64,000 bases of DNA from Volvox africanus (lineage: Eukaryota > Chlorophyta > Chlorophyceae > Chlamydomonadales > Volvocaceae). A program made the position numbers and the translations under genes. The stretch is taken from contig BSDZ01000031.1 of the NCBI GenBank assembly GCA_030268105.1, positions 186,001 through 250,000 of the forward strand, in the 5' to 3' direction. The notes beneath the pieces are model-generated. The model was not told the DNA's origin. It saw only the letters and a program-made list of their open reading frames with translations, and ran no database searches. Position 1 is the first letter of the stretch. Each line of letters starts with the position of its first letter. This document shows, piece by piece, positions 35,408-61,800 of the stretch.

Positions 35408-38400
35408 GGTGAACGCGCATTTGAAGGCGGAGACGATGAGTTTATTAGGAGCGCTCAACATTTCCGGAAAGGTTATGAAGGAGGCGTGCGAAACGACCCT
35501 TCAAATAGAGGGGTGGAAGTCGTCGCTACATGGTGGCAGCGGTAGTGGAAAAGAAGAGAACAATTTTGGACCCTCATTCCCCGCACCGCCAGGCTGTCGC
35601 AAGCCGGCTGCATTTGTCTCCTCTACCACATCCAGTACCGCAGCGGCAGATCGGTATGGAAGAGGACCTCACGCAGGCACCCTGCCCCCCTTCCCACTGC
35701 CGCCCTCTTAACTACCTGTGCTCAGCAACTACCTACATACAGGAACCAGGGCACCGCAGCCCCTTGCAACAAGATCAGCAGAAGCAAGCGGCAACCCGGC
35801 CCGTTATGGTCTATGCGTCACTGCCAATTCGGGATGATGGGGACGAGCAGCAGCTAGATGAGCAGAATTACCGGCAGGCGACTCAGCAACAAGTGCGCCC
35901 GCAGGCGCCGTGTGGCTTACCTGCCAGTGATCGGGTCCCGCCGGCCGTCCCCTCGATAGGACGACCTGGCTCTTTGGCTGATGGAGCTGAACCTCTCCCT
36001 GGTCTCAGCCCTGATCCTCATGGCTCGCCTGCTGCCACCCCGGATGCTGCGTTTCTGGCACAGCTTACACAGCACTTCGCGGTGACATTGTCAGCAGCGT
36101 GTGAGGTACGGGAGGTACATGAGGCCCACATGAGGTCCAACAAGGACTGAAAAATTGAACAGACGTGTATTTGCTTTTGGGTGGAATTTGTGGATTTCTT
36201 ACAGTGGTTGCCTCTGGGTTTGTCAGCTGCATGGGACTAGCTGGGGCCTGTTGCAGGAGCAGGAGGCCCTTCAATCGTAAATCGCTCCAGGTAAATAATC
36301 TTTATCAACCCCTCCTTTCGTTTTATCGCGACATATTGGCCAAAAACGAAACGCAAGGCCCTTGTGGAGATGGAAGATCTGTACGGCATCCGCCTGCTAG
36401 AAGGCAGCAGCAGGACGCTCCAGCCGACCGATGTTGGGCCAGCGGGCGGCGGCGGTGGCGGAGTGGCGTGCTGGCCTTCAACTCCGTCGCCGCCTGGGCC
36501 TTCGCCCCTTCGGCAGGTGTACGAAGAGCTGTGTGGCTCGGATCGGAAGCTACGGGTGAGCTTGGAGCTCCTGGCTGCCTCCGTCATTTGCCTGCTTGGA
36601 TCTGTCGTCTTCTTTTGGTGTTGAGACTTCGGGCAGATAGAGCGATGGCAGCTAGTAGCGAGTCGATCAGAGAACATATAGGGCAAGGGGATTGCAGGAA
36701 AACTGCAGCGCCAATCCATCAAGAGAGGCAGGTGATGATTTCACCCCGGCGGCGGTCACGCACGACGGCACAAAACCCTTGGGGTTAAGGGTTCAGCGGT
36801 GGTCAGTTTGTCTGGACCTGGATTGGTCCTCACTGCTCTCTTAACAGAAAATGCCAGGAGCCGGTGGCCCGGGCTCGGGCTCAAGACCCGTCCCAGGGCT
36901 TTCTTCCCCTCGATTGATGCGTATGTGCGTATGGATGCATGCTACCTGCGACAGAGTCAAGCCGTGTTAAGTAATTAAGCTATTCCTTGGATGACGCGGC
37001 AGGCGATGATGCTGGGGGACTTGGCACTGCGCTGGTTGGAGGTGAGTGCATCCTAGTCTAAGATCTCTCGAATCAGCAAAACCAAACCACCAAACGTTTT
37101 GGGCACGGTAGGTATCTACGTACTTCGCAGGGCGCGCGCGTGCGCGCGTGTGTGTGTATGTGTGTGTTTGTGTGTAATGTAATTTGTCGCGACGGACGCC
37201 TGCCGCAGGACAATGCCTGGCGAAGGCCTCTTGAGCTGATGCTTGGCCGCCGAGTGCGGGGTCTGGGACTGGATCGAGTGGGGCCCGTGGAAGGACTGAA
37301 TGCGCAGCAACAGGTGTGAGGTTGCATTAGCTCTACCAGTTTGGCAAGCTCCCAGCCACTTCTGCATGTTAGGTGCTGTTGATGGCCCTAGCGACTGGTC
37401 GTGCGAGGCCGATAGTGAGGCTGATGAGTCAGCTTTCGAGTTGTGCCCAAGGGCGTGGACCCTTCTCCCATCCACCTGTGCATCTGACGCATCGGAAGGT
37501 CAGATTAGAGCATGTATGGTGCTGGAAACGATTTTTGCTGGGAGCACTATGGCTGCCGTTGATGTTGCCGCCCACAATACTGAAAACTCGTTGAGTGGTA
37601 ACGATGAGCTAGATCACTACACATGCGGTTTTGACTTCACGCGAACAACATGCACTATAAACCACTGCAGGCTAACTGGGACAGAAGTCGGCGAGCTGTG
37701 TACAGCAATTTTGCAGAGCTGGCCCAGGCTGCCATTACGGCAGCAGCCGGGCGCGATGGCGGCGGCACGGCCTCAGCACTGTTGCCCAGGACTACCCACG
37801 TTTGCGATGGCCGCAGCACATCGGGTGGTGCGGACCAACGGGTCAGTTCATCAGCCATCCAGCATTTCCTTGCTGTAACTGATCATCTCGCAGAAGGCTT
37901 GGCGGGGCACCTGCTAGGGGGGAACCAAACCCCACCATCGCCACCAGGTCCCTCTCAAGAGCCAAAAACACTCACGAAGCTGTCGTCGCCGCCACCATCG
38001 CTGGTGTTACCGCCAGCAGCAGCGCCCATAAGTAAGCAGCAGCCTGTAAAGCCAGCCCCGCTGCCCGTGCGAGCGCTGGTTGAGCCCTTCCGCATTGTAT
38101 CGTCTCAATCTCCGACATTGCCGACACGGCCGCAGCCGGTGTGCCCGCTTCTGCCCCTTGCACCGCGGCTGCAGCCGACGACTGATAAGCCCATTCAATT
38201 GCAGTCAGTACTACCAGTGGCCTGCGAGTTGCACACCTATCCCCCGTCCGTTGCCGTTCCATGTGCAGGTTCCCGCCACTCGGGTATCCTTGGCGCGGGT
38301 CTAAACACAATTGAAACGGTTCTTCGAATGTGTGGCACCGCCGATGCCGCCACCGCCACCGCCATGAAGATCATGAACGGCGCCTCTCATACTGCTGTTG

Positions 38401-39932
38401 GCGTCGACATCGAAGGGCGCGATGGTGGTGGCTGCAGGCATGGAAATAATGATGGTTTGAGAGGAATAAACGGAGCGGCATCTCGTGCCACCGTAACCAT
38501 GTTGCTTCGCAGCGCCGTACACATCGCCGTGCATTTGGCATTTCAGGTGGGCGCCTCTTCTAATGGCAGGCTCATGCTGAGGCTGGTGTCACCGGGGGAT
38601 CCGCTGCCGCCGTTATCACCATCGTCGCCCCCGCCCCCGCCCCCACTCCAAGCCGCTGAGCCAGAAGCGCATGCCCGGCTCTTGCTGGCCCGCTCACCTG
38701 CCCCGGCCGTGCTGAAGGCGCCGATGGCCGTTGCTGTGGAGTGGCTTTGGAGTGAGCTGTACAGCGGGACGGACGTCGATGGCGACAGCGGGAGACATGC
38801 CAGGTGTAGACCGGGTCGTCAGAAAGCTAAGTACCCCGACTGGTGCACCAGTACTAATTGCTGTTGTGTAGACGACAATAGCACCGGCAGCGGCTGTAGC
38901 GGCATCAAGACAAATGCGGTCGGAGTCGCCTGCATGGCTTCAAAGCGGCTATCGTGTACGTTCTATGATGATACCGGCATGGGCCCGCCGCATTCGCCCG
39001 GTGAAGCCTTGCGACCCCCCCCGGTTGGGGAAACGCTGCAGATCCGCTCCAGGGAAGACGAGTTTGCGGACTCGCAAGTATCACGGAATGACGGGGCAAC
39101 ACCTCTACCGGTCATGGTGGGGCCATTCAACATGACACGCCCGCCGTCCCTGGAGGGACCGCCCCGTTGTTTACGCAGGGGACAACCTGCCCTGGATCAA
39201 TGCATTAAGGAATCGGCAGCTTTTGGCAGTGCGGGCGTTTCAGCCGCGTCGGGAGCATCGGTACTGTCAGCCAAAGTTCAAAATTGCGCTCATCATGAGA
39301 CTGCTTCGATCCAGTTGCTGACGGCGGTTGCACGACCCTTCCCGCCGACGTCATTACCCATAAAATCGCCACAACTGCTGCTGGCAGCTCCAGGAGTGCA
39401 GTCACTGCCGCCAACAACGGGAGAGATTATAATGCCAGCTACGCGGCCGCCATATCCTAGCGCGCGTCCCCACCCCGTACTATTACCGCATCCCTCTGAT
39501 TCAAACGTCTGCAGCAGCGACGGTGGTGGGATTGAAAGCTTCACAGGTGGCAGCCGCCATTGCGGTGACGCTAGCAAAAGAGGTGGGGGCGACGGAAGGT
39601 GTGCTGGCGCAAGCAACAGTAGAGATACAATGGCAGCAGTGCTGTGGGTCGTCTCACCTGCGGTAGTGAGCCGCGGAGTGCACTGGGAGAGAGAACTACA
39701 TAAAGAAGACGCAGTGGTCCATAAATCATGCCAACCGCAGACCTCTGCCACAACAACCGCTGATTTTGCAATGGCCACAGTCCATGCAGTTGGCGGCGGC
39801 GGACTGGGCTGCAGCGCAGCCCCGAGTGGCGACGAAGGGGCTGGTCCATCATGGCTCGGGCGCCGAGTAGTGATTGAAGTGCCAGTTGTTCCGGCCCACG
39901 TAGTGGGTTGTGGAACAGTACTGCACAGGTAA
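35398..39932 (+). CDS. Unrecognised multi-exon gene (or 3' continuation of the finger-protein gene)
   Basis: I do not recognise the product. The clearest exons are 36358-36555 (ALVEMEDLYGIRLLEG..., ends at a GTGAGC donor), 37004-37041 (AMMLGDLALRWLE), 37209-37313 (DNAWRRPLELMLGRR..., phase 0 both sides) and the long 37671-39932 exon (753 codons, opening ANWDRSRRAVYSNFAELAQAAI). Probable upstream exons lie in 35398-35650 (helical VLNKVNAHLKAETMSLL...) and 35729-36120. Between 36636 and 36732 no single frame links both neighbours cleanly: one frame has TAG, the other needs an incoming phase 2. The long exon is mostly disordered, Pro/Ala/Ser-rich, with no detected catalytic motif. Its stop TAA (39930-39932) overlaps an AG|GTAAGG donor-like site, so more exons may follow. 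Whether this is one gene with 31382-35407 is unresolved. Confidence 0.4.
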
Positions 39933-43223: not shown

Positions 43224-43256
43224 TCATTGCATTTCTGCCTATAACGTCACTAGCTC

Positions 43257-43385
43257 TCATTCTGGAAGGCCAGTCTTCAGTGCAGCCACCAGCTCACCGA
43301 AGTCTGGACGTTCTCGTGGTTCAAGTGCCAGGCACCTCTCCACGAGCGCGGCGTATTCAGGGTCAGGAATGTGCAATATTAAGTC
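43257..43385 (-). CDS. Protein kinase copy 2, last exon (subdomain XI)
   Basis: The minus-strand exon opens after TGTGCAG at 43385 and ends with TGA at 43257-43259 (42 codons plus stop). It encodes RCLALEPRERPDFGELVAAL, the subdomain XI helix with its conserved Arg. It is nearly identical to the last exon of copy 1 (29338-29466) and the same length. Its partner exons lie on the far side of the retrotransposon array at 58592-58039. The intron between them therefore now contains 14.1 kb of inserted DNA. The exon itself is undamaged. Confidence 0.75.
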   Translation of the reverse strand, partial: DLILHIPDPEYAALVERCLALEPRERPDFGELVAALKTGLPE

Positions 43386-43496
43386 CTGCACACAGCAGGG
43401 AGCACGCACACATATGCTTTATGTGATGTAGTTTTATGCACAATGATATATGATTGTTGTTACGCAAATAAACATGATATTAACAAAACATACATG

Positions 43497-43767: not shown

Positions 43768-43772
43768 TGTAT
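43768..43772. other. Target-site duplication TGTAT, left side
   Basis: TGTAT immediately precedes the first LTR and recurs at 57897-57901 immediately after the third LTR. A 5-bp duplication is the size expected for Ty3/gypsy integrases. No second duplication occurs inside the array. Confidence 0.85.
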
Positions 43773-44598
43773 TGTTGTGCTACGGTTCATTTCCCGCCGA
43801 CGCGTAGGTCGACGCGATCCTACGAGGCGAAGTGCTTTTGTGATGAACGCATTGCATATGAATGAATCTGCATGATATAAATGTATTCGTGTACATTTAT
43901 ATATGCATTTGGCATGTTGTCATTATCCATCGCGACATCGCATCATGGCAAATCCGCCTAGCATGCATGAATGACCGAATCATTGAAGTGCGCATTATGC
44001 TCGTGCTACGAAATGATAAGTAATATTATCTGATATAATATTACTTCATTACAGCACACGTTGAGAGCGCCGCACTCGTCGCGATACATGCCCAGCAACC
44101 GGATATCGTTATCCGGACCCTTGCATCATGCGAATGCCGGAAAGGCTTATACGTTATTATGCGTAGACATCGCCTAGACGCAGTAGGGTTGTCACATCTA
44201 GGATCGGCCTCCTAATGTGAATCGTACGGCATTGCGATGCTGCGAGTATAACAGATGCGAGGACGGCTAAGCTAAAGAAGACATTCGATACCGGAGAACA
44301 CTTGTGTGTTCTACATTACTATTACTATACGATATTCTACTTAGCCCGAGCTAAGCCTGAACTTCGCTAATCACCGCCGCGTGATGATTGCTTGCTTCCG
44401 GCGCTGACGGCGATTGCGTCCATTGCATCAATCCGATCTGTAAGACCGTAAGTTATATCTCTCTCTTCGTCTTGAAGTCTTCCGCTGTCTCTGTTTGCTC
44501 TCGCTTGCCTTGCTGTACTTGCAAGTGCTCGCGCATCGGTGTCGATAGTCTCCAGACGTGCAGATACTCATGAGCAAACGCGAACGAGAGGTACAACA
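43773..44598 (+). repeat. LTR 1 (5' LTR of array)
   Basis: 826 bp, starts TGTTGTGC and ends TACAACA (TG...CA). It contains a TATA-like gatataaatg near 43873, a 12-bp-arm hairpin at 44018-44046, a short palindrome around ccggatatcgttatccgg (about 44098-44115) and another at gaacac-ttgt-gtgttc. It presumably supplies promoter and poly(A) functions. Confidence 0.93.
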
Positions 44599-44665: not shown

Positions 44666-45099
44666 ATGGCGAGTTCCAGCGACGAACCACGAGGACCGCT
44701 AGATACTTTTGCCGAAGACTTAGGCCGCGCCGTTTTGGACGCCGCCGCTTCCGGTTTGTAATTGTTTAATTGCTTTTCCTTAGATTGCTGCACTTGTTGT
44801 GTAAGTGTACGCTCTGAGTCGCAGGTAATCTCAGCGCACCGGCATTGCTTGCCGCGGCGACTGAGACCGGCGTTCGTCCGGACCAGTTGGCGACTCTCAT
44901 TGCCCAAACTACGGAGATCAGGACTCAGCTGGGCAATTACTTGCTGAGTTTGCTGAATCTTCTCAAGAGTACTGTCGGTAGGCTCACCGAATCGCTTTGT
45001 ACTCTTGCCTTTGCGATAGAAGTCGGCTTCTATTACGCAAAACTAGGGTATCGTTTCGTGCTCCATGTCCGCGGAACACGACGATACGCCGCACACTAG
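44666..45099 (+). CDS. Leader reading frame upstream of gag, unit 1 (possibly spliced)
   Basis: ATG at 44666 opens a 30-codon frame (MASSSDEPRGPLDTFAED...). A GT-AG pair (intron 44754-44824, phase 1) would join it to the open frame at 44825-45099 containing LLAAATETGVRPDQLATLIAQ. This ends 35 nt inside gag in a different frame. It is unknown whether it is a real small protein, a spliced leader or the N-terminus of a frameshifted Gag. The same layout is present in unit 2 (51315-51748). No homology was recognised. Confidence 0.35.
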
Positions 45100-46300
45100 C
45101 CTAGCTAGCCAACCCGATTTCGTTGTAGCTGCTAGAGCGCCGGATAGAGGTCTTGAGACTGTTGGCGCGCGAGCCACTCAAGAGCCCCTTTTCCTTCAGA
45201 CCCCTGCTCACTTAATTGTGCCGCATTCAGCAGTGAACATGAATATGGACAACACTGCTGGACCAAGGGTTCTGCCATTACCTCAAGCTCGAGGGCATGA
45301 TGACATCCCTGAGGTGATGAGATTGTCGATTCCCGTTCCTAGGCTCAATATTTCGCTGACCGACAAGACACCAGGGCATAGCATAGCCGATGCAACTCGT
45401 GCGTACGTGCGTGACGCTAAAAAGTACCTCCAAGCTGTTCATGGTGGCGATAATGACGGTATCAGGTGTCTCTTCGTTGGTAACACCCTCGAGGGCGCAG
45501 CGAAGGACTGGTATCGCAATTGGACCAACGCCCGGGGCAGCTATACTTTTGACGAGTTAGTCGCCGCTTTGCTCGCACGATTCGCCACTGAGGTTCAAGC
45601 ACGCGATGTGGAAGCCCGTAACGTTTTGGCAGCCGGTAGCTACCATATGCGTCGGGATGAAAATGTACCTGCGTACCAGTCACGCTTCGAAGCACTTGTG
45701 ACTCCCATTGCTGACCTCACCGAATCTGAGCGTGTCTTTTGGTTTAGGCGAGGCCTAACGAAACTTTTGGCTAAATGGTGCGCCACTGACTTGGTTGGAG
45801 CGCAGATCAAGTCGTATGACGCGTTGGTCGCTTTTGCTAAGGGCGCGGAGATACGACTTCTTGCCGGCGAGGAAGAAGTCAAGTCTGCCCCTCGTGCAAA
45901 TGCCGTGCAAGTGCAGGATCCGCTTGGGGAAGCTGTAGCTCTCGACCAGGACCTCGGCGCGACCCGCCCCACGCCTACTGCCGCGACGCGACGCAGCAAC
46001 GGGCAACGCAAGGCGCGCGGGGGCGCTAGCTCGGGTGTCCGTGGTACAGTAGGAGCAGGTCCGAGCTCGGACCCAGCTAGGAACAGGAAGCGTGGTGGTG
46101 CGCCGTCGTCGGCAGCCGCACAGCGTTCCGATCCCAACGCGAAGCGTACTCGTACGGACGACACATTTATGCCAAAATGGAATTGCAATCGTTCCGAATT
46201 CGAGCGTCGGAAATTGGCCAATGTTTGTCTACGGTGTGCGGAGAATCATTCCACGAAGGATTGCCCTCTAATGCCGCCGTTTGTACCTCAGCCGAAATAG
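45065..46300 (+). CDS. gag: Gag, unit 1
   Basis: 411-residue capsid/nucleocapsid precursor that packages element RNA. The central part shows the Ty3/gypsy Gag (retrotrans_gag) pattern: LFVGNTLEGAAKDWYRNW, then FDELVAALLARFA and VPAYQSRFEAL. After a basic Ser/Arg/Pro-rich stretch comes a single zinc knuckle CLRCAENHSTKDC (spacing CX2CX3HX4C, one residue shorter than the usual CX2CX4HX4C). It ends at TAG 46298-46300, after which the same frame stays open into pol. The start ATG 45065 is the first in frame, with a stop just upstream. Confidence 0.88.
   Translation: MSAEHDDTPHTSLASQPDFVVAARAPDRGLETVGARATQEPLFLQTPAHLIVPHSAVNMNMDNTAGPRVLPLPQARGHDDIPEVMRLSIPVPRLNISLTDKTPGHSIADATRAYVRDAKKYLQAVHGGDNDGIRCLFVGNTLEGAAKDWYRNWTNARGSYTFDELVAALLARFATEVQARDVEARNVLAAGSYHMRRDENVPAYQSRFEALVTPIADLTESERVFWFRRGLTKLLAKWCATDLVGAQIKSYDALVAFAKGAEIRLLAGEEEVKSAPRANAVQVQDPLGEAVALDQDLGATRPTPTAATRRSNGQRKARGGASSGVRGTVGAGPSSDPARNRKRGGAPSSAAAQRSDPNAKRTRTDDTFMPKWNCNRSEFERRKLANVCLRCAENHSTKDCPLMPPFVPQPK
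46298..46300 (+). promoter_or_regulatory. In-frame UAG between gag and pol (candidate readthrough site)
   Basis: Context AAA UAG GGG CUU. The 93 nt after it contain no stop in the gag frame and run straight into pol. The same codon, context and spacing occur at 52947-52949 and, on the minus strand, at 62884-62882 of the diverged third element. Confidence 0.7.
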
Positions 46301-49300
46301 GGGCTTGCCCGGGTTCCTGCGGAGGGGGCACCACCTGGGATTTCTGAACTAACGCGTGGTCGGTGGTCATCCTTACGGCCAGCCGTTAAGGCATTGTTGC
46401 CTTGTGTACTTGGACACATCGAGCGAGTCATTGCGCGACGCATCACGCTTGACGGACGCACGGGACTTCTCTGCTTCGACCCGTTGTGTAATTTGTTTAC
46501 ACCTCGCCGTCCCCTGTCGTCTATCGATCTGTCTAACCACGTGGTTTTGTTCATACCCTCGTCTCTGCGTGAGATGTCGGAACAGTCGGCCATATACAGG
46601 AGGTGTAGGCGTCAATATCCAGGCACTGCCGCATGTGTTTTACTCCCCGCTTTCTGTCGGCGCAAGGCAGAGGCATCGTTAAGGGGTATGCGGCATGTCC
46701 ACCGGTTCGAGCCGGGCACCGTTTTGTTTAATGGTGTGGATCGGGAGGGTACGCTGGCTCCGTGGCCACACCTATCCTACTCGGTTGACGTTTGGTACGG
46801 AGCTCCTGATGGGGGTGCCGTTGGTTACGGACCCGCCCTAAGTGCACTGACGTTGTCTGCTGGGCAGTCGCTCGTAGATAACCGTGTCCCTGTGGTTCAG
46901 ATCGGTCTGAATGGCCGTACTCTGAAGGCACTTGTTGACACCGGTGCCAGCGACGACTTCATCTCTGTCGCAGAGGTGAATGCGCTGGGGTTGTCCCCAG
47001 AGTCGTCTGATTGTCCACAGGTTACCCTTGCTGACGGGGGTAAGCATCCCATCGTGGGCAGGATTACCCTTAGCCTATCGTTAGGCCCTTTGCGTGTTGT
47101 GACCCGTCCGTACGTGCTGCAGGGCTTAGCAGAGACTGCACCGTACATAATGGGGTCGTCGACATTACGACAGTACCGCGCGCGCATCGACATGGAGACC
47201 GCAACCCTGCATATGTGCAAGGGTACTCTGTCGATTAAGGTACCTTTCCTGTCGTTCGAACATGTCACACCAAAGGAGGGCGAAACTGAGGCGGTGCCTA
47301 TGGTTAATTTCGCTGTGACCGCAATGGCCGCGCGAATCGAACCAGAGCTAGTCGGGCGTAAGGAGGCCGTCCGTTTGTTACGGAAGGGTGCCCACGGACT
47401 GCTTTTAAGGCCGCGGGTGAGCTGTTGTGTCACCACCGCGCAGATTTCTGCGGATCCTGAGGTTGAGGCCCTACTGTCGCAGTATGAGGACGTCTTTAAA
47501 GATATCCCTGGCCTACCACCTATGCGTCCTGTTGATCACACAATCCCTCTCATGCCTGGAGCGCAGCCTACGGCCCGGCCAATGTACAGGTTGAGTCCAT
47601 TGGAGCTGGACGAGGTGAAGCGCCAGGTGACGGATTTGCTCGCGAAGGGTATGATACGCCCCAGCACATCCCCGTATTCTGCACCGATTTTGTTTGTCGG
47701 TAAGAAGGATGGGACCTTGCGCATGTGCATTGATTACCGGGGGTTAAATGCGAATACGGTGAAAAATCGCTACCCTTTGCCACGCGTTGACGACCTGTTG
47801 GATAAGCTGAAGGGCTCGGCTTATTTTTCCTCAATTGACTTACAACAGGGCTACAATCAGATTCGCATCGCTGCCTCTGATATCCCGAAAACCGCTTTTC
47901 GGACGCCCTTCGGTCACTTTGAGTATACGGTCCTATCATTTGGTTTGACTAATGCCCCTGCGACGTTTCAGGCGGTTATGGACCGAATGTTTAGGCCGTT
48001 TATCGACAGGTTCGTTGTTTGCTACCTGGATGACATCTTGGTATATTCTAAGACGCGCGAGGAGCACTTGGAGCATTTGCGGCTCGTGCTCGACGTTATG
48101 AGGCGGGAGCAATTGTTTGCTAAACGCGCCAAATGCTTTTGGGCGCAGCCTCAGGTGGAATATTTGGGTCACATTGTATCTGCCACCGGTGTGAAGATGG
48201 ACCCGCGGAAGGTCGCCGTGGTTCGCGATTGGCCTGCGCCTCAGAACCTCACGGAGCTGCGTAAGTTCCTTGGCTTGACCAATTATTTCCGAAAGTTCAT
48301 TGAAAAATATTCCATCATTGCGGCCCCGCTTACTAACTTAACTCGCAAAGGCGTTTTCGTTTCGCTCGAGTCGTGGACGTCGCAATGCCAGCGGGCATTC
48401 GAAGAGCTCAAACGAATCGTTGCCGAAGATGTCACCCTTGCATTCCCTGATTACTCGTTGCCATTTCGTGTTGAGGTAGTGTCTGATGCCTCAATATTTG
48501 GAAGCGGCGCTGTATTGTTACAGGAAGGGCGACCGATCGCCTTCACGAGTAGGAAGTTTTCTGGTGCGGAGATTCGCTACACCACCGGGGAACAGGAGCT
48601 TCTGGCTGTGCTGCATGCTTTAAAGGAATGGCGCTGTTACCTCGAGGGACGCCCGTTTACTTTAAAGACTGACCACAAGCCCCTAACGTTTTTGCAAAGC
48701 GTTCCGACGTTGAACCGCCGTCAAGCTAGGTGGATGGAATATCTAGCTAGGTTCAACTGCACCTGGGAGTATATTTCTGGTAAATTGAATATTGCCGATG
48801 CTCTCAGTCGACATCCGTCGCTACACGCTGCAATTTTGGCAGCGCCCGTCGTGCGGCCACGTAGCGAGGAGGTTCCGATCGCAACGGGCCTCGCGGAGCG
48901 GTTGAAGGCTGCCTACAGCGCAGACGCCTGGTTCGCGGACCCGGCTAATGTAGAAAACCTTCGCAAGCAGAATGGCCTTTGGCTACGGACGGAGGGTGCA
49001 GCTACGCAAATCGTCGTTCCGAACGACGACGCGCTACGCTACGACATCCTTGCGCGGTTCCACGAGGACCCGTTAGCAGGACACCCTGGTAGCAAGCGAT
49101 TGATCGACTTGGTGCAACGTTCCTTTTGGTGGCCTCGTTTGGCTAAGGATGCGGCGAACTTCGTCCAGACATGCAGTCTGTGCCAGCGCAATAAGGCTTT
49201 GTCCGGTAAGGGCCATGGGTTGTTGCAACCGTTGCCTGTCCCGGATGCGCCTTGGGAAAGTGTTTCCATGGACTTCGTAGTCGCGCTGCCCAAAACTGAG

Positions 49301-50362
49301 GGGGGATACGATGCGGTGTTCGTAATGGTCGATCGTCTGACTAAGATGGTTCACCTAGCACCATGCACATCATCCTGCACGGCTGAGCAAACCGCACGTC
49401 TGTTTTTCGATAATGTGGTTCGGTTACACGGGATTCCCAAAAATGTGATCTCGGACCGCGGTGGACAGTTCACGTCTAAGTTTTGGGAAGCGCTCTGCAA
49501 ACTAGTTGGCATGCGCGTCAACCTGAGCACGGCGTATCACCCGCAGACTGATGGTCAAACCGAACGCACAAACCGCACGTTGGGTGATATGTTGCGCAAT
49601 TATGCTGGTCGCACACCACTTGTTTGGGATACATATTTGACTGCGGCAGAATTCGCGCTTAACAACGCTGTTAACCGCTCTACAGGCAAAAGTCCGTTCT
49701 TTCTTAACTACGGATTTCATCCCGCGCTACCCGTGTGGCGTGAGTTGGAAGTGAACGTGCCTGCTGCTAAACTTTTTGCCAAGTCTTTTATGTCCCGAAT
49801 CACAGACGCGAAGTCGTGTTTGGACGCGGCGCAGCAACGAACGACGGAATACTATAACAAATCTAAGCAGGATGTGACGTTTTCGGAAGGGCAACTCGTG
49901 TTGCTAAGCACCAAGAACTTGCGTTCCTTGGCCGACGGATCCCGAAAACTCTTACCCCGCTGGATTGGTCCGTATCCTGTCGTGCGCATGGTTGGGAATG
50001 TGGCTGTGGAGCTTGCATTGCCCACTGATATGACCATTCACCCCACGTTTCACGTATCGCTTGTTCGTCCGTATCGTGGTACGGAACCCGTCCCTGAGCC
50101 TGCTAACGCCCCCGCAGCGATCGAACCAGTTCCCGAGACCTGGATCGCTGGTAAACAGAAGTTTTACGATGTGGAGCGGGTGTTAGATCATCGCGCGCGT
50201 CGTGTGGGCCGACACCGACGTAAGCGAACAGTACACGAGTACTTGGTTAAGTGGACAGGGTATACCGACGAGCACAACTCATGGGAACCGGCACGCAACT
50301 TCTCACAGGACATGAAACCCCTGCTCGAAGAAGCCCGCAAACGTGCCACGCAAGCCCAATGA
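46301..50362 (+). CDS. pol: Pol polyprotein with chromodomain, unit 1
   Basis: In frame with gag after the UAG, 1353 codons to the stop at 50360-50362. Domain order: aspartic protease ([10 protein letters not shown], Asp codon 46937), reverse transcriptase ([29 protein letters not shown] at about 48023), RNase H ([24 protein letters not shown]), integrase with its HHCC zinc region (HPGSKR...CSLCQRNK), catalytic Asp in MDFVV and DRGGQF and Glu in [10 protein letters not shown], then a chromodomain ([19 protein letters not shown]). PR-RT-RH-INT-chromodomain defines a chromovirus, whose chromodomain steers integration to particular chromatin. No defect is seen. Because there is no ATG immediately after the UAG, expression through readthrough is more likely than independent initiation. 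Confidence 0.93.
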
Positions 50363-50421: not shown

Positions 50422-51247
50422 TGTTGTGCTACGGTTCATTTCCCGCCGACGCGTAGGTCGACGCGATCCTACGAGGCGAAGTGCTTTTGTGATGAACGCA
50501 TTGCACATGAATGAATCTGCATGATATAAATGTATTCGTGTACATTTATATATGCATTTGGCATGTTGTCATTATCCATCGCGACATCGCATCATGGCAA
50601 ATCCGCCTAGCATGCATGAATGACCGAATCATTGAAGTGCGCATTATGCTCGTGCTACGAAATGATAAGTAATATTATCTGATATAATATTACTTCATTA
50701 CAGCACACGTTGAGAGCGCCGCACTCGTCGCGATACATGCCCAGCAACCGGATATCGTTATCCGGACCCTTGCATCATGCGAATGCCGGAAAGGCTTATA
50801 CGTTATTATGCGTAGACATCGCCTAGACGCAGTAGGGTTGTCACATCTAGGATCGGCCTCCTAATGTGAATCGTACGGCACTGCGATGCTGCGAGTATAA
50901 CAGATGCGAGGACGGCTAAGCTAAAGAAGACATTCGATACCGGAGAACACTTGTGTGTTCTACATTACTATTACTATACGATATTCTACTTAGCCCGAGC
51001 TAAGCCTGAACTTCGCTAATCACCGCCGCGTGATGATTGCTTGCTTCCGGCGCTGACGGCGATTGCGTCCATTGCATCAATCCGATCTGTAAGACCGTAA
51101 GTTATATCTCTCTCTTCGTCTTGAAGTCTTCCGCTGTCTCTGTTTGCTCTCGCTTGCCTTGCTGTACTTGCAAGTGCTCGCGCATCGGTGTCGATAGTCT
51201 CCAGACGTGCAGATACTCATGAGCAAACGCGAACGAGAGGTACAACA
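50422..51247 (+). repeat. LTR 2 (shared middle LTR)
   Basis: 826 bp, acting as 3' LTR of unit 1 and 5' LTR of unit 2. It differs from LTRs 1 and 3 at 50506 (C instead of T) and 50881 (C instead of T). Confidence 0.93.
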
Positions 51248-51748: not shown

Positions 51749-52949
51749 CCTAGCTAGCCAACCCGATTTCGTTGTAGCTGCTAGAGCGCCGGATAGAGGT
51801 CTTGAGACTGTTGGCGCGCGAGCCACTCAAGAGCCCCTTTTCCTTCAGACCCCTGCTCACTTAATTGTGCCGCATTCAGCAGTGAACACGAATATGGACA
51901 ACACTGCTGGACCAAGGGTTCTGCCATTACCTCAAGCTCGAGGGCATGATGACATCCCTGAGGTGATGAGATTGTCGATTCCCGTTCCTAGGCTCAATAT
52001 TTCGCTGACCGACAAGACACCAGGGCATAGCATAGCCGATGCAACTCGTGCGTACGTGCGTGACGCTAAAAAGTACCTCCAAGCTGTTCATGGTGGCGAT
52101 AATGACGGTATCAGGTGTCTCTTCGTTGGTAACACCCTCGAGGGCGCAGCGAAGGACTGGTATCGCAATTGGACCAACGCCCGGGGCAGCTATACTTTTG
52201 ACGAGTTAGTCGCCGCTTTGCTCGCACGATTCGCCACTGAGGTTCAAGCACGCGATGTGGAAGCCCGTAACGTTTTGGCAGCCGGTAGCTACCATATGCG
52301 TCGGGATGAAAATGTACCTGCGTACCAGTCACGCTTCGAAGCACTTGTGACTCCCATTGCTGACCTCACCGAATCTGAGCGTGTCTTTTGGTTTAGGCGA
52401 GGCCTAACGAAACTTTTGGCTAAATGGTGCGCCACTGACTTGGTTGGAGCGCAGATCAAGTCGTATGACGCGTTGGTCGCTTTTGCTAAGGGCGCGGAGA
52501 TACGACTTCTTGCCGGCGAGGAAGAAGTCAAGTCTGCCCCTCGTGCAAATGCCGTGCAAGTGCAGGATCCGCTTGGGGAAGCTGTAGCTCTCGACCAGGA
52601 CCTCGGCGCGACCCGCCCCACGCCTACTGCCGCGACGCGACGCAGCAACGGGCAACGCAAGGCGCGCGGGGGCGCTAGCTCGGGTGTCCGTGGTACAGTA
52701 GGAGCAGGTCCGAGCTCGGACCCAGCTAGGAACAGGAAGCGTGGTGGTGCGCCGTCGTCGGCAGCCGCACAGCGTTCCGATCCCAACGCGAAGCGTACTC
52801 GTACGGACGACACATTTATGCCAAAATGGAATTGCAATCGTTCCGAATTCGAGCGTCGGAAATTGGCCAATGTTTGTCTACGGTGTGCGGAGAATCATTC
52901 CACGAAGGATTGCCCTCTAATGCCGCCGTTTGTACCTCAGCCGAAATAG
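51714..52949 (+). CDS. gag: Gag, unit 2
   Basis: 411 residues, identical to unit 1 Gag except Met to Thr at the position encoded around 51889. The same zinc knuckle and the same terminal UAG (52947-52949), with the frame open beyond it. Intact. Confidence 0.88.
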   Translation: MSAEHDDTPHTSLASQPDFVVAARAPDRGLETVGARATQEPLFLQTPAHLIVPHSAVNTNMDNTAGPRVLPLPQARGHDDIPEVMRLSIPVPRLNISLTDKTPGHSIADATRAYVRDAKKYLQAVHGGDNDGIRCLFVGNTLEGAAKDWYRNWTNARGSYTFDELVAALLARFATEVQARDVEARNVLAAGSYHMRRDENVPAYQSRFEALVTPIADLTESERVFWFRRGLTKLLAKWCATDLVGAQIKSYDALVAFAKGAEIRLLAGEEEVKSAPRANAVQVQDPLGEAVALDQDLGATRPTPTAATRRSNGQRKARGGASSGVRGTVGAGPSSDPARNRKRGGAPSSAAAQRSDPNAKRTRTDDTFMPKWNCNRSEFERRKLANVCLRCAENHSTKDCPLMPPFVPQPK

Positions 52950-55900
52950 GGGCTTGCCCGGGTTCCTGCGGAGGGGGCACCACCTGGGATTTCTGAACTA
53001 ACGCGTGGTCGGTGGTCATCCTTACGGCCAGCCGTTAAGGCATTGTTGCCTTGTGTACTTGGACACATCGAGCGAGTCATTGCGCGACGCATCACGCTTG
53101 ACGGACGCACGGGACTTCTCTGCTTCGACCCGTTGTGTAATTTGTTTACACCTCGCCGTCCCCTGTCGTCTATCGATCTGTCTAACCACGTGGTTTTGTT
53201 CATACCCTCGTCTCTGCGTGAGATGTCGGAACAGTCGGCCATATACAGGAGGTGTAGGCGTCAATATCCAGGCACTGCCGCATGTGTTTTACTCCCCGCT
53301 TTCTGTCGGCGCAAGGCAGAGGCATCGTTAAGGGGTATGCGGCATGTCCACCGGTTCGAGCCGGGCACCGTTTTGTTTAATGGTGTGGATCGGGAGGGTA
53401 CGCTGGCTCCGTGGCCACACCTATCCTACTCGGTTGACGTTTGGTACGGAGCTCCTGATGGGGGTGCCGTTGGTTACGGACCCGCCCTAAGTGCACTGAC
53501 GTTGTCTGCTGGGCAGTCGCTCGTAGATAACCGTGTCCCTGTGGTTCAGATCGGTCTGAATGGCCGTACTCTGAAGGCACTTGTTGACACCGGTGCCAGC
53601 GACGACTTCATCTCTGTCGCAGAGGTGAATGCGCTGGGGTTGTCCCCAGAGTCGTCTGATTGTCCACAGGTTACCCTTGCTGACGGGGGTAAGCATCCCA
53701 TCGTGGGCAGGATTACCCTTAGCCTATCGTTAGGCCCTTTGCGTGTTGTGACCCGTCCGTACGTGCTGCAGGGCTTAGCAGAGACTGCACCGTACATAAT
53801 GGGGTCGTCGACATTACGACAGTACCGCGCGCGCATCGACATGGAGACCGCAACCCTGCATATGTGCAAGGGTACTCTGTCGATTAAGGTACCTTTCCTG
53901 TCGTTCGAACATGTCACACCAAAGGAGGGCGAAACTGAGGCGGTGCCTATGGTTAATTTCGCTGTGACCGCAATGGCCGCGCGAATCGAACCAGAGCTAG
54001 TCGGGCGTAAGGAGGCCGTCCGTTTGTTACGGAAGGGTGCCCACGGACTGCTTTTAAGGCCGCGGGTGAGCTGTTGTGTCACCACCGCGCAGATTTCTGC
54101 GGATCCTGAGGTTGAGGCCCTACTGTCGCAGTATGAGGACGTCTTTAAAGATATCCCTGGCCTACCACCTATGCGTCCTGTTGATCACACAATCCCTCTC
54201 ATGCCTGGAGCGCAGCCTACGGCCCGGCCAATGTACAGGTTGAGTCCATTGGAGCTGGACGAGGTGAAGCGCCAGGTGACGGATTTGCTCGCGAAGGGTA
54301 TGATACGCCCCAGCACATCCCCGTATTCTGCACCGATTTTGTTTGTCGGTAAGAAGGATGGGACCTTGCGCATGTGCATTGATTACCGGGGGTTAAATGC
54401 GAATACGGTGAAAAATCGCTACCCTTTGCCACGCGTTGACGACCTGTTGGATAAGCTGAAGGGCTCGGCTTATTTTTCCTCAATTGACTTACAACAGGGC
54501 TACAATCAGATTCGCATCGCTGCCTCTGATATCCCGAAAACCGCTTTTCGGACGCCCTTCGGTCACTTTGAGTATACGGTCCTATCATTTGGTTTGACTA
54601 ATGCCCCTGCGACGTTTCAGGCGGTTATGGACCGAATGTTTAGGCCGTTTATCGACAGGTTCGTTGTTTGCTACCTGGATGACATCTTGGTATATTCTAA
54701 GACGCGCGAGGAGCACTTGGAGCATTTGCGGCTCGTGCTCGACGTTATGAGGCGGGAGCAATTGTTTGCTAAACGCGCCAAATGCTTTTGGGCGCAGCCT
54801 CAGGTGGAATATTTGGGTCACATTGTATCTGCCACCGGTGTGAAGATGGACCCGCGGAAGGTCGCCGTGGTTCGCGATTGGCCTGCGCCTCAGAACCTCA
54901 CGGAGCTGCGTAAGTTCCTTGGCTTGACCAATTATTTCCGAAAGTTCATTGAAAAATATTCCATCATTGCGGCCCCGCTTACTAACTTAACTCGCAAAGG
55001 CGTTTTCGTTTCGCTCGAGTCGTGGACGTCGCAATGCCAGCGGGCATTCGAAGAGCTCAAACGAATCGTTGCCGAAGATGTCACCCTTGCATTCCCTGAT
55101 TACTCGTTGCCATTTCGTGTTGAGGTAGTGTCTGATGCCTCAATATTTGGAAGCGGCGCTGTATTGTTACAGGAAGGGCGACCGATCGCCTTCACGAGTA
55201 GGAAGTTTTCTGGTGCGGAGATTCGCTACACCACCGGGGAACAGGAGCTTCTGGCTGTGCTGCATGCTTTAAAGGAATGGCGCTGTTACCTCGAGGGACG
55301 CCCGTTTACTTTAAAGACTGACCACAAGCCCCTAACGTTTTTGCAAAGCGTTCCGACGTTGAACCGCCGTCAAGCTAGGTGGATGGAATATCTAGCTAGG
55401 TTCAACTGCACCTGGGAGTATATTTCTGGTAAATTGAATATTGCCGATGCTCTCAGTCGACATCCGTCGCTACACGCTGCAATTTTGGCAGCGCCCGTCG
55501 TGCGGCCACGTAGCGAGGAGGTTCCGATCGCAACGGGCCTCGCGGAGCGGTTGAAGGCTGCCTACAGCGCAGACGCCTGGTTCGCGGACCCGGCTAATGT
55601 AGAAAACCTTCGCAAGCAGAATGGCCTTTGGCTACGGACGGAGGGTGCAGCTACGCAAATCGTCGTTCCGAACGACGACGCGCTACGCTACGACATCCTT
55701 GCGCGGTTCCACGAGGACCCGTTAGCAGGACACCCTGGTAGCAAGCGATTGATCGACTTGGTGCAACGTTCCTTTTGGTGGCCTCGTTTGGCTAAGGATG
55801 CGGCGAACTTCGTCCAGACATGCAGTCTGTGCCAGCGCAATAAGTCTTTGTCCGGTAAGGGCCATGGGTTGTTGCAACCGTTGCCTGTCCCGGATGCGCC

Positions 55901-57011
55901 TTGGGAAAGTGTTTCCATGGACTTCGTAGTCGCGCTGCCCAAAACTGAGGGGGGATACGATGCGGTGTTCGTAATGGTCGATCGTCTGACTAAGATGGTT
56001 CACCTAGCACCATGCACATCATCCTGCACGGCTGAGCAAACCGCACGTCTGTTTTTCGATAATGTGGTTCGGTTACACGGGATTCCCAAAAATGTGATCT
56101 CGGACCGCGGTGGACAGTTCACGTCTAAGTTTTGGGAAGCGCTCTGCAAGCTAGTTGGCATGCGCGTCAACCTGAGCACGGCGTATCACCCGCAGACTGA
56201 TGGTCAAACCGAACGCACAAACCGCACGTTGGGTGATATGTTGCGCAATTATGCTGGTCGCACACCACTTGTTTGGGATACATATTTGACTGCGGCAGAA
56301 TTCGCGCTTAACAACGCTGTTAACCGCTCTACAGGCAAAAGTCCGTTCTTTCTTAACTACGGATTTCATCCCGCGCTACCCGTGTGGCGTGAGTTGGAAG
56401 TGAACGTGCCTGCTGCTAAACTTTTTGCCAAGTCTTTTATGTCCCGAATCACAGACGCGAAGTCGTGTTTGGACGCGGCGCAGCAACGAACGACGGAATA
56501 CTATAACAAATCTAAGCAGGATGTGACGTTTTCGGAAGGGCAACTCGTGTTGCTAAGCACCAAGAACTTGCGTTCCTTGGCCGACGGATCCCGAAAACTC
56601 TTACCCCGCTGGATTGGTCCGTATCCTGTCGTGCGCATGGTTGGGAATGTGGCTGTGGAGCTTGCATTGCCCACTGATATGACCATTCACCCCACGTTTC
56701 ACGTATCGCTTGTTCGTCCGTATCGTGGTACGGAACCCGTCCCTGAGCCTGCTAACGCCCCCGCAGCGATCGAACCAGTTCCCGAGACCTGGATCGCTGG
56801 TAAACAGAAGTTTTACGATGTGGAGCGGGTGTTAGATCATCGCGCGCGTCGTGTGGGCCGACACCGACGTAAGCGAACAGTACACGAGTACTTGGTTAAG
56901 TGGACAGGGTATACCGACGAGCACAACTCATGGGAACCGGCACGCAACTTCTCACAGGACATGAAACCCCTGCTCGAAGAAGCCCGCAAACGTGCCACGC
57001 AAGCCCAATGA
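52950..57011 (+). CDS. pol: Pol polyprotein with chromodomain, unit 2
   Basis: Same length and domains as unit 1 pol (protease DTGAS, RT YLDD, RNase H, DDE integrase, chromodomain). One amino-acid change was seen: Ala to Ser beside the integrase zinc motif (CQRNKSLSG, base 55845). Another base change (56150) is silent. No stop or frameshift. Confidence 0.93.
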
Positions 57012-57070: not shown

Positions 57071-57896
57071 TGTTGTGCTACGGTTCATTTCCCGCCGACG
57101 CGTAGGTCGACGCGATCCTACGAGGCGAAGTGCTTTTGTGATGAACGCATTGCATATGAATGAATCTGCATGATATAAATGTATTCGTGTACATTTATAT
57201 ATGCATTTGGCATGTTGTCATTATCCATCGCGACATCGCATCATGGCAAATCCGCCTAGCATGCATGAATGACCGAATCATTGAAGTGCGCATTATGCTC
57301 GTGCTACGAAATGATAAGTAATATTATCTGATATAATATTACTTCATTACAGCACACGTTGAGAGCGCCGCACTCGTCGCGATACATGCCCAGCAACCGG
57401 ATATCGTTATCCGGACCCTTGCATCATGCGAATGCCGGAAAGGCTTATACATTATTATGCGTAGACATCGCCTAGACGCAGTAGGGTTGTCACATCTAGG
57501 ATCGGCCTCCTAATGTGAATCGTACGGCATTGCGATGCTGCGAGTATAACAGATGCGAGGACGGCTAAGCTAAAGAAGACATTCGATACCGGAGAACACT
57601 TGTGTGTTCTACATTACTATTACTATACGATATTCTACTTAGCCCGAGCTAAGCCTGAACTTCGCTAATCACCGCCGCGTGATGATTGCTTGCTTCCGGC
57701 GCTGACGGCGATTGCGTCCATTGCATCAATCCGATCTGTAAGACCGTAAGTTATATCTCTCTCTTCGTCTTGAAGTCTTCCGCTGTCTCTGTTTGCTCTC
57801 GCTTGCCTTGCTGTACTTGCAAGTGCTCGCGCATCGGTGTCGATAGTCTCCAGACGTGCAGATACTCATGAGCAAACGCGAACGAGAGGTACAACA
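57071..57896 (+). repeat. LTR 3 (3' LTR of array)
   Basis: 826 bp, TG...CA ends. Matches LTR 1 at the two positions where LTR 2 differs, and has a private A at 57451. Confidence 0.93.
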
Positions 57897-57901
57897 TGTA
57901 T
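57897..57901. other. Target-site duplication TGTAT, right side
   Basis: Partner of 43768-43772. Host sequence beyond it is kinase intron on the minus strand. Confidence 0.85.
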
Positions 57902-58819: not shown

Positions 58820-61800
58820 TCATTGGGCTTGTGTGGCACGTTTGGGGGCTTCCTCGAGCAGGGGCTTCATGTCCTGCGAGAAGTTGCGTGCCGGTTCCCA
58901 TGAGTTGTGCTCGCTGGTATACCCTGTCCACTTGACTAAGTACTCGTGTACTGTCCGCTTACGTAGGTGTCGGCCCACACAACGCGCGCGATAATCTAAC
59001 ACCCGCTCCACATCGTAAAACTTCTGTTTACCAGCGATCCAGGTCTCGGGAACTGGTTCGATCACTGCGGGGGCGTTAGTAGGCTCAGGGATGGGTTCCG
59101 TACCACGATAAGGACGGACAAGCGATACGTGAAACGTGGGGTGAATGGTCATATCAGCGGGCAATGCAAGCTCCACAGCCACATTCCCAACCATGCGCAC
59201 GACAGGATACGGACCAATCCAGCGGGGTAAGAGTTTTCGGGATCCGTCGGCCAAGGAACGCAAGTTCTTGGTGCTTAGCAACACAAGTTGCCCTTCCGAA
59301 AACGTCACATCCTGCTTGGATTTGTTGTAATACTCCGTCGTTCGTTGCTGCGCCGCATCCAAACACGACTTCGTGTCTGTGATTCGGGACATAAAAGACT
59401 TGGCAAAAAGTTTAGCAGCAGGCACGTTCACTTCCAACTCACGCCACACGGGTAGCGCGGGATGAAACCCATAGTTAAGAAAGAACGGACTTTTGCCTGT
59501 AGAGCGGTTAACAGCGTTGTTAAGCGCGAATTCTGCCGCAGTCAAATATGTATCCCAAACGAATGGTGTGCAACCAGCATAATTGCGCAACATATCACCC
59601 AACGTGCGGTTTGTGTGTTCAGTTTGACCATCAGTCTGCGGGTGATACGCCGTGCTCAGGTTGACGCGCATGCCAACTAGCTTGCAGAGCGCTTCCCAAA
59701 ACGTAGACGTGAACTGCCCACCGCGGTCCGAGATCACATTTTTGGGAACCCCGTGTAACCAAACCACATTGTCGAAAAACAAACGTGCCGTTTGTTCAGC
59801 CGTGCAGGATGATGTGCATGGTGCTAGGTGGACCATCTTAGTCAGGCGATCGACCATTACGAACACCGCATCATATCCCCCCTCAGTTTTGGGCACCCCG
59901 ACTACGAAGTCCATGGAAACACTTTCCCAAGGCGCATCTGGGACAGGCAACGGTTGCAACAACCCATGACCCTTACCGGACAAAGCCTTATTGCGCTGGC
60001 ACAGACTGCATGTCTGTACGAAGTTTGCCGCATCTTTAGCCAAACAAGGCCACCAAAAGGAACGTTGCACCAACTCGACCAACCGCTTGCTACCAGGGTG
60101 TCCTGCTAACGGGTCCTCGTGGAACCGTGCAAGGATGTCGTAGCGTAGCGCGTTGTCGTTCGGAACGACGATTTGCGTAGCTGCACCCTCCGTCCGTAGC
60201 CAAAGGCCATTCTGCTTGCGAAGATTTTCTACATTAGCTGGCTCCGAGAACCAGGCGTCTGTGTTGTAGGCCACCTTCAACCGCTCTGCGAGGTCCGTCG
60301 CAATCGGCACCTCCTCGTTATGCGGTCGCACGACGGGCGCTGCCAAAATTGCAGCGTGTAGCGATGGATGTCGACTGAGAGCATCGGCAATGTTCAATTT
60401 ACCAGAAATGTACTCCCAGGTGCAGTCGAATCTAGCTAGGTATTCCATCCACCTAGCCTGACGGCGGTTCAACGTCGGAACGCTTTGCAAAAACGTTAGG
60501 GGCTTATGGTCAGTCTTTAAAGTAAATGGGCGTCCCTCGAGGTAACAGCGCCATTCCTTTAAAGCATGCAGCACTGCCAGAAGCTCCTGTTCCCCGGTGG
60601 TGTAGCGAATCTCCGCACCAGAAAACTTCTTACTCATGAAGGCGATCGGTCGCCCTTCCTGTAACAATACAGCGCCGCTTCCAAATACTGAGGCATCAGA
60701 CACCACCTCAACATGAAACGGCAACGAGTAATCAGGAAATGCAAGGGTGACATCTTCGGCAACGGTTTGCTTGAGCTCTTTGAATGCCCGCTGGCATTGC
60801 GATGTCCATGACTCGAGCGAAACGAAAACGCCTTTGCGAGTTAAGTTAGTAAGAGGTGCCGCAATGATGGAATATTTTTCAATGAACTTTCGGAAATAAT
60901 TGGTCAAGCCAAGGAACTTACGCAGCTCCGTGAGGTTCTGAGGCGCGGGCCAATCGTGAACCACGGCGACCTTCCGCAGGTCCATCTTCACACCGGTGGC
61001 CGACACAATGTGGCCCAAATATTCCACCTGAGGCTGCACCCAAAAGCATTTGGCACGTTTAGCAAAGAATTGCTCCCGCCTCATAACGTCGAGCACGAGC
61101 CGCAGATGCTCCAAGTGCTCCTCGTGCGTCTTAGAATAAACCAAGATGTCATCCAGATAGCAAACAACGAACCTGTCGATAAACGGCCTAAACATTCGGT
61201 CCATGACCGCCTGAAACGTCGCAGGGGCATTGGTCAACCCAAACGATAGGACCGTATACTCGAAGTGACCAAAGGGCGTCCGAAAAGCGGTTTTCGGAAT
61301 ATCAGAGGCAGCGATGCGAATCTGGTTATAGCCCTGTTGCAAGTCAATCGAGGAAAAATAAGCCGATCCCTTCAGCTTATCCAACAGGTCGTCAACTCGT
61401 GGCAAAGGGTAGCAATTTTTCACCGTACTCACATTCAACCCCCGGTAATCGATGCACATGCGCAAGGTCCCATCCTTCTTACCGACAAACAAAATCGGTG
61501 CAGAATACGGGGATGTGCTGGGGCGTATCATACCCTTTGCGAGCAAATCCGTCACCTGGCGCTTCACCTCGTCCAGCTCCAATGGACTCAACCTGTACAT
61601 TGGCCGGGCCGTAGGCTGCACTCCAGGCATGAGAGGGATTGTGTGATCAACAGGACGCATAGGTGGTAGGCCAGGGATATCTTTAAAGACGTCCTCATAC
61701 TGCGACAGTAGGGCCTCAACCTCAGGATCCACAGAAATCTGCGCGGTGGTGGCACAACAGCCCACCCGCGGCCTCAAAAGCAGTCCGTGGGCACCCTTCC

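Follow-up and report, generated by a model that had tools for sequence, protein, structure and literature searches.

An in-frame UAG between gag and pol in chromodomain Ty3/gypsy elements of Volvox africanus, a probable type-III-like readthrough signal

Known stop-codon junctions and the Volvox elements

Type III readthrough signals combine a UAG with a 3' G or a purine-rich octanucleotide and with an RNA structure, and these structures typically start ~8 nt after the stop (PMC3542737). In Moloney murine leukaemia virus (MuLV), gag and pol share one frame with UAG-G between them, and a 3' RNA structure, there a pseudoknot, follows after an 8-nt spacer (PMC4178896, PMC3542737); readthrough amounts to 5-10% and inserts glutamine (PMC4178896). 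Here we describe a similar layout in a 64,000-nt stretch of the 141-Mb genome of Volvox africanus (contig C31:186001-250000, hereafter the window), which holds three chromodomain Ty3/gypsy elements; in each of them gag and pol share a frame and are separated by a UAG. Their family is called family A. Judged by its sequence, the junction behaves like a type III signal, and programmed, type-III-like UAG readthrough is very probably the means by which the elements produce Gag and some Gag-Pol. Most ribosomes would terminate at the UAG, giving Gag, and a minority would insert an amino acid there and go on, giving Gag-Pol. The stimulator would be the sequence UAG-NNN-YUUGYCCRGG together with a compact stem-loop, the 5' arm of which begins at nt 8 past the stop, the usual position of known readthrough structures. 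Both the ribosomal readthrough and the role of the stem as its stimulator we infer from the patterns set out below. The Volvox junction differs from that of MuLV in its simple 6-bp stem, its 7-nt spacer, the lack of a pseudoknot partner shared by the families, and its green-algal host.

Other systems share parts of this arrangement. The Volvox context AAA-UAG-GGG resembles the tombusvirus UAG-GGR, the luteovirus AAA-UAG-GUA and the benyvirus UAG-GGG, the last with a compact stem-loop (PMC3542737), but those stops lie in replicase or coat genes of RNA viruses, some of them depend on long-range pairing, and the CUUGCCCRGG block is missing from the table in the available part of PMC3542737. Among Ty3/gypsy elements, Tj1, Tosmo1-3 and Tcry1 of fission yeast likewise have an in-frame gag-pol stop with conserved flanks, but the stop is UGA in a C-rich 3' context, and the available part of the source mentions no stem (PMC10085805). 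RIRE2, a gypsy element of another host, rice, is named as a candidate for readthrough (PMC2754532). Tca2 of Candida albicans has a like layout, gag-UGA-pol, and differs in its host and in that no readthrough took place at its junction in yeast (PMC2194720). By host and chromodomain, the likely home of the Volvox elements is Chlamyvir, an algae-specific chromodomain Ty3/gypsy clade that is abundant in Volvox carteri (PMC3350952, PMC6317226); the available parts of these two papers make no statement on a gag-pol stop in Chlamyvir.

The open reading frame (ORF) coordinates bear out the original prediction that the three window elements carry gag, UAG and pol in one frame. In copy 1 the gag ORF (45047-46300) closes with TAG at 46298-46300, and pol (46301-50362, 1353 aa, terminal TGA) continues in the same frame; copy 2 (TAG 52947-52949, pol 52950-57011) and copy 3 on the minus strand (TAG 62884-62882, pol 62881-58820, with gag truncated by the window end) have the same layout. 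All three keep the UAG, as predicted, but they do not count as three witnesses. Copies 1 and 2 are arranged as long terminal repeat (LTR)-internal-LTR-internal-LTR, with 5 differences in 5821 internal bases; because the middle LTR is common to both and a single TGTAT stands on either side (43768-43772 and 57897-57901), they are one tandem insertion, and the window holds two independent insertions, copies 1/2 together and copy 3 separately. Copy 3 differs from copy 1 in pol by 94 synonymous and 68 nonsynonymous codons, that is by 68 residues where about 70 had been estimated. Pfam searches found protease, reverse transcriptase (RT), RNase H, integrase and chromodomain in the pol of copy 1, in the chromovirus order of protease, RT, RNase H and integrase followed by the chromodomain (PF00385, pol 1289-1337, 46.4 bits, cut-off 25.1); capsid-like matches in gag fell slightly below the curated cut-offs. 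The features are as follows.

43768-43772, partner 57897-57901: target site duplication TGTAT, 5 bases, read by eye
43773-44598, plus strand: LTR 1 (TGTTGT...ACAACA), from self-BLAST, ends from sequence reading
45065-46297, plus strand: gag of copy 1 from the first in-frame ATG, with capsid-like region (Pfam, below cut-offs) and CCHC knuckle; from the ORF list
46298-46300, plus strand: in-frame UAG of copy 1, proposed readthrough site
46301-46342, plus strand: conserved 3' stretch, pol codons 1-14, GGG CTT GCC CGG G ... CCT GGG ATT; synonymous constraint and covariance model match
46308-46313, plus strand: proposed stimulatory stem, 5' arm (CCCGGG), separated from the UAG by 7 nt
46334-46339, plus strand: 3' arm of the proposed stem, CCTGGG (CCCGGG in other copies)
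46301-50362, plus strand: pol of copy 1, with protease, RT, RNase H, integrase and chromodomain, ending in TGA
~46397-46830, plus strand: N-terminal Pol domain, degenerate in copy 1; predicted Dam-like / N6-adenine methyltransferase fold in relatives
50422-51247: LTR 2, from self-BLAST
52947-52949, plus strand: in-frame UAG of copy 2, between gag (ending at 52946) and pol (52950-57011); arms of the stem at 52957-52962 and 52983-52988
57071-57896: LTR 3, from self-BLAST
62882-62884, minus strand: in-frame UAG of copy 3, between gag (from 62885, truncated) and pol (58820-62881); arms of the stem at 62869-62874 and 62843-62848

Conservation of the UAG and of the sequence behind it

Across the genome, the exact flanks of the family A junction were found 1037 times with TAG and 1039 times with any codon, which leaves 2/1039 without TAG, and the conservation of UAG expected by the original prediction thus stands. 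Two neighbouring codons, tested likewise, had 45/1082 and 41/1078 variants. The contrast between TAG and its neighbours in these sequence counts is strong, with the reservations that exact-flank counting is biased toward close copies and that Fisher p-values on the genome counts are overstated, since the copies share ancestry and the control-codon variants include subfamily alleles. A sample of 81 junctions (80 copies of 97 listed, among them copies 1 and 2 of the window, and in addition copy 3) had TAG in 81/81, yet 8/81 carry stop codons in the adjoining 600 nt of gag. Among the 73 copies with intact flanks, 211/400 codons are invariant; the lack of TAG variants in that sample is therefore unremarkable, and the argument rests on the genome-wide counts.

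Related families were collected by gag and pol-start searches of the same genome, from the best-scoring candidates of each search. From 150 hand-picked loci (L009-L158) we tabulated 144 junctions, 143 with TAG (A 101, at 100 distinct places; B 11; C 15; E 9; F 1; a dead relative of A 6) and one with TGA (D). Wherever a junction of families A, B, C, D, E and F was tabulated, gag is open up to the stop and pol is open from the stop, in the same frame. Over Pol residues 1-190, A, B and C are mutually 41-49% identical, and E is 20-29% identical to them; F (L089) and D (L131) were found as single copies with frames damaged downstream. The six untabulated loci comprise L100 of the dead family, with TAA; L107 of A, with a 2-nt deletion before TAG; L127 of B, with TAG in a degenerate frame; and L132, L152 and L156, with no intact junction. 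The original prediction had named a sense codon, a frameshift or another stop in other copies as evidence against it, and the odd cases among the relatives fetched, L107 and L100, are degenerate copies. Twenty further loci gave TAG in 17 (among them L175, a repeat of L129), and L166, L169 and L172 lacked a junction. No fused or frameshifted family appeared among the loci fetched, which cover part of the genome's Ty3/gypsy elements. Judged from the proteins alone, the gag homologues P0125 and P0127 (metagenomic) and P0131 (from another Volvox africanus record) have the same aligned end, with lysine before the stop. In the dead family (L099-L105), a TGA lies 9 nt before the TAG position in 7/7 fetched copies, which suggests that it was amplified while already defective; further stops occur in 6/7 within the stretch viewed.

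The motif UAG-NNN-YUUGYCCRGG and the stem are common to families A, B and C and to the relic F. The first bases after the stop are GGG-CUU-GCC-CGG-G in A, GAA-CUU-GCC-CAG-G in B, mostly GGC-CUU-GCC-CAG-G in C, UGG-AUU-GUC-CAG-G in F and GGA-CUG-GCC-CAG-C in D. Numbering from the U of UAG, nt 11-16 pair with nt 37-42 in 6 bp after a 7-nt spacer, the arms being CCCGGG/CCYGGG in A, CCCAGG/CCUGGG in B and C, and UCCAGG/CCUGGG in F; in D the stem is shifted (CCCAGC/GCUGGG) and its loop is 3 nt shorter. The original prediction had proposed a downstream stem, and one does find support in synonymous constraint and in two-sided changes; the pairing is a different one, of CCCGGG (46308-46313) with CCTGGG (46334-46339), and E is without it. 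The local self-pairing first proposed, of GGGCTTGCCCGGG (GGG-CUUG-CCC), is not conserved, family B having GAACTTGCCCAGG there, and on the B sequence GAACUUGCCC we rejected it.

Residues conserved among A, B and C have identical codons in 5/5 cases within pol codons 1-14 and in 4/54 later (p = 2.5e-5); this stretch was picked after the data had been seen, and a run permutation gave p = 0.0013. Synonymous shuffles attain the stem pairing in 1.3% (A), 2.8% (B), 2.8% (C), 4.6% (F) and 2.2% (D) of cases, rates that are not to be multiplied, the families not being independent. A 40-row alignment (A2: 40 of 45 distinct junction rows, with L091, L097, L114 and both E rows omitted, and with the 3' arm of the D row misaligned, which counts against the stem) had 95.4% of its cells paired, with two-sided changes at three pairs. 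The covariation score of the stem over these 40 rows was attained by 0/500 shuffles, a control that leaves relatedness in. RNAalifold predicted 5/6 of the stem pairs without prompting, and a covariance model built from 13 A/B/C rows matched F at its UAG (E 1.1e-7) and 5/6 dead-family loci (E 0.002-0.01).

Set beside the type III definition, the junctions have UAG in 143/144 tabulated cases (1037/1039 in family A) and a 3'-adjacent G in 141/144, the exceptions being U in F and 2/15 C copies. The alternative purine-rich octanucleotide is not present in A (GGGCUUGC). A structure ~8 nt after the stop is found in A, B, C and F, shifted in D, and not in E.

The stretch after the stop bears on how pol is translated. 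The pol frame has its first AUG at codon 92 in family A and at codon 130 in the C copy L122. Between pol codons 15 and 91 of family A there are 19 distinct synonymous and 13 nonsynonymous variants, a ratio of nonsynonymous to synonymous polymorphism (pN/pS) of 0.26, against 0.34 in gag and 0.38 in pol 92-200; 8/81 copies with disrupted flanks were dropped from this sample. By this measure, codons 15-91 of A are under selection at the protein level, and since they have no start codon of their own, this points to ribosomes that arrive from gag. The argument is limited to A and C, because B and E have early pol AUGs.

Alternatives to readthrough and points against it

Gag and pol could instead be joined in frame by partial splicing of an intron that spans the UAG. 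There is precedent in the Ogre elements, where an intron between the ORFs is spliced from part of the transcripts (PMC6317226); the gene models of the family predict introns in the gag leader, and in-frame donor/acceptor-like pairs can be found in A (-62 to +85, 147 nt) and B (-11 to +82, 93 nt). However, no donor-like site lies at a matching place in any two of A, B, C and E, for which one representative per family was scanned, and the B donor GTAAGG is altered in L154 and L170. The Ogre ORFs are a few hundred bp apart (PMC6317226), whereas those of Volvox abut at the stop with no shared splice pair seen. Splicing would not need one frame that is open before and behind the stop, nor conserved codons and a stem after it, and of the gene models seen only P0126 crosses the UAG, with a jump from gag to protease. 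Splicing across the UAG is thus unlikely. We give slightly less credence still to separate translation of Pol, by reinitiation, internal entry or a subgenomic promoter after gag. The pol AUGs at codon 20 in B and codon 25 in E would allow it, and a minor promoter has been described in the junction DNA of Tca2 (PMC2194720); but the first AUG in A and C lies inside or after the conserved domain, the codons before it in A are constrained as protein, and separate translation would not demand that pol, in six families, keep to the gag frame and be open right from the gag stop. The least probable explanation is that the UAG arose as a chance nonsense mutation, or that this genome reads it as an ordinary sense codon. 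Identity within a family proves little here, because the copies come from few progenitors; but the same stop is kept across families with 20-49% Pol identity, and there is selection on both sides of it. On the junction table and the selection data we rejected a stray mutation or sense codon, and the original prediction was sound in holding a random nonsense mutation unlikely, since 1037/1039 TAG genome-wide and a layout kept in distant families go beyond chance.

Programmed readthrough, the interpretation first proposed and the one that the sequence-level checks favour, has to be weighed against several findings of ours that speak against it. Family E has the UAG and the frame but neither motif nor stem, and the A/B/C covariance model finds neither D nor E. 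Further pair types in the stem are no more numerous than in shuffles, of which 126/500 reach the count. In A the 80 nt from +3 are less stable than dinucleotide shuffles (z +2.3), and the folding z against synonymous shuffles is ordinary in A (0.0), B (-0.9), D (-0.6) and E (-0.3); C (-2.3) and F (-2.0) gave lower values. A pseudoknot partner common to the families was not found, the candidates differing from family to family. The early AUGs of B and E count here as well, and so does Tca2, the gag-stop-pol layout of which gave no readthrough in a reporter (PMC2194720). Because most families have an unremarkable folding energy, the case is built on the specific stem and the codons and not on stability, and we set folding energy aside as an uninformative statistic. 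A MuLV-like pseudoknot is not supported, no pairing being shared by the families. The lowest z of a sliding scan in A was -3.2 at +43, where there is a hairpin (~+52 to +90) that we set aside as distant from the stop.

The Pol N-terminal domain and the reach of the proposed signal

The part of Pol directly behind the signal is conserved across the clade. In family E this domain (L121:28-597, minus strand) matches the Dam N6-adenine methyltransferase family PF05869 (E 2e-5, 24.8 bits) below the cut-off of 28.1, and the relatives P0105 (31.3 bits) and P0058 (32.8 bits) lie above it; the domain of the window copy has no PF05869 match. AlphaFold models the E domain confidently (mean pLDDT 87.3; low for the first 30 residues after the stop), and among solved structures the model best matches cap-specific adenosine N6-methyltransferases (6irw, E 5.4e-4, TM-score 0.52 by query). 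On this model, the fold of the N-terminal Pol domain is that of an N6-adenine methyltransferase. NPPY is the catalytic motif of N6-adenine methyltransferase-type enzymes. It is kept in E, and the window family, with IPSS at that place, appears to have lost it.

Possible, if a little short of an even chance, is the broader proposal that readthrough is a clade-wide trait of green-algal chromoviruses with a signal of its own (UAG-NNN-YUUGYCCRGG and a 6-bp stem), which would predate the split of families now <50% identical and would attach Pol by way of a domain with the N6-adenine methyltransferase fold, NPPY being kept in at least one family (E). The mechanism itself is already known; new would be the algal lineage, the conserved sequence and stem, and the position before the N6-methyltransferase-fold domain. 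In the papers searched, by their titles and abstract openings and with subscription journals mostly absent, we found no report of readthrough in algal retrotransposons and none of this signal in green algae. Readthrough at these junctions would add a green-algal branch, in a high-copy family (1037 exact junction copies), to the retroelements that set their Gag:Gag-Pol ratio by stop-codon readthrough. Since the proposed signal lies within ~42 nt and is unlike the contexts tabulated in the available part of PMC3542737, the families would offer a natural variant series for UAG readthrough on plant-lineage ribosomes.

In the window, ARAGORN found no tRNAs, a suppressor tRNA elsewhere in the genome not having been searched for; an Rfam scan of 46150-46600 gave a single match, far below the gathering score, and no relatives were confirmed in IMG/VR. 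The gene models P0122 and P0129 prepend two gag exons (44666-44755 and 44818-44976, with gag from ~45176), which places predicted introns in the 5' leader; P0133 has part of the same first upstream exon, and P0129, P0132 and P0134, also gene models, omit the capsid region. Elsewhere in the genome, head-to-tail arrays that share LTRs at a 6647-bp step comprise five units (G000 C99:509551-537437) and four units (C16:2714302-2734971). Two long stop-to-stop ORFs, 32201-35407 (1068 aa) and 37635-39932 (765 aa), have no Pfam match at E 0.01. The window also contains a 165-bp inverted repeat pair, 88% identical (29319-29483 and 43240-43404), and a pherophorin-like ORF at 24422-26266 (PF12499, E 5.5e-28) with internal repeats around 24869-25189.

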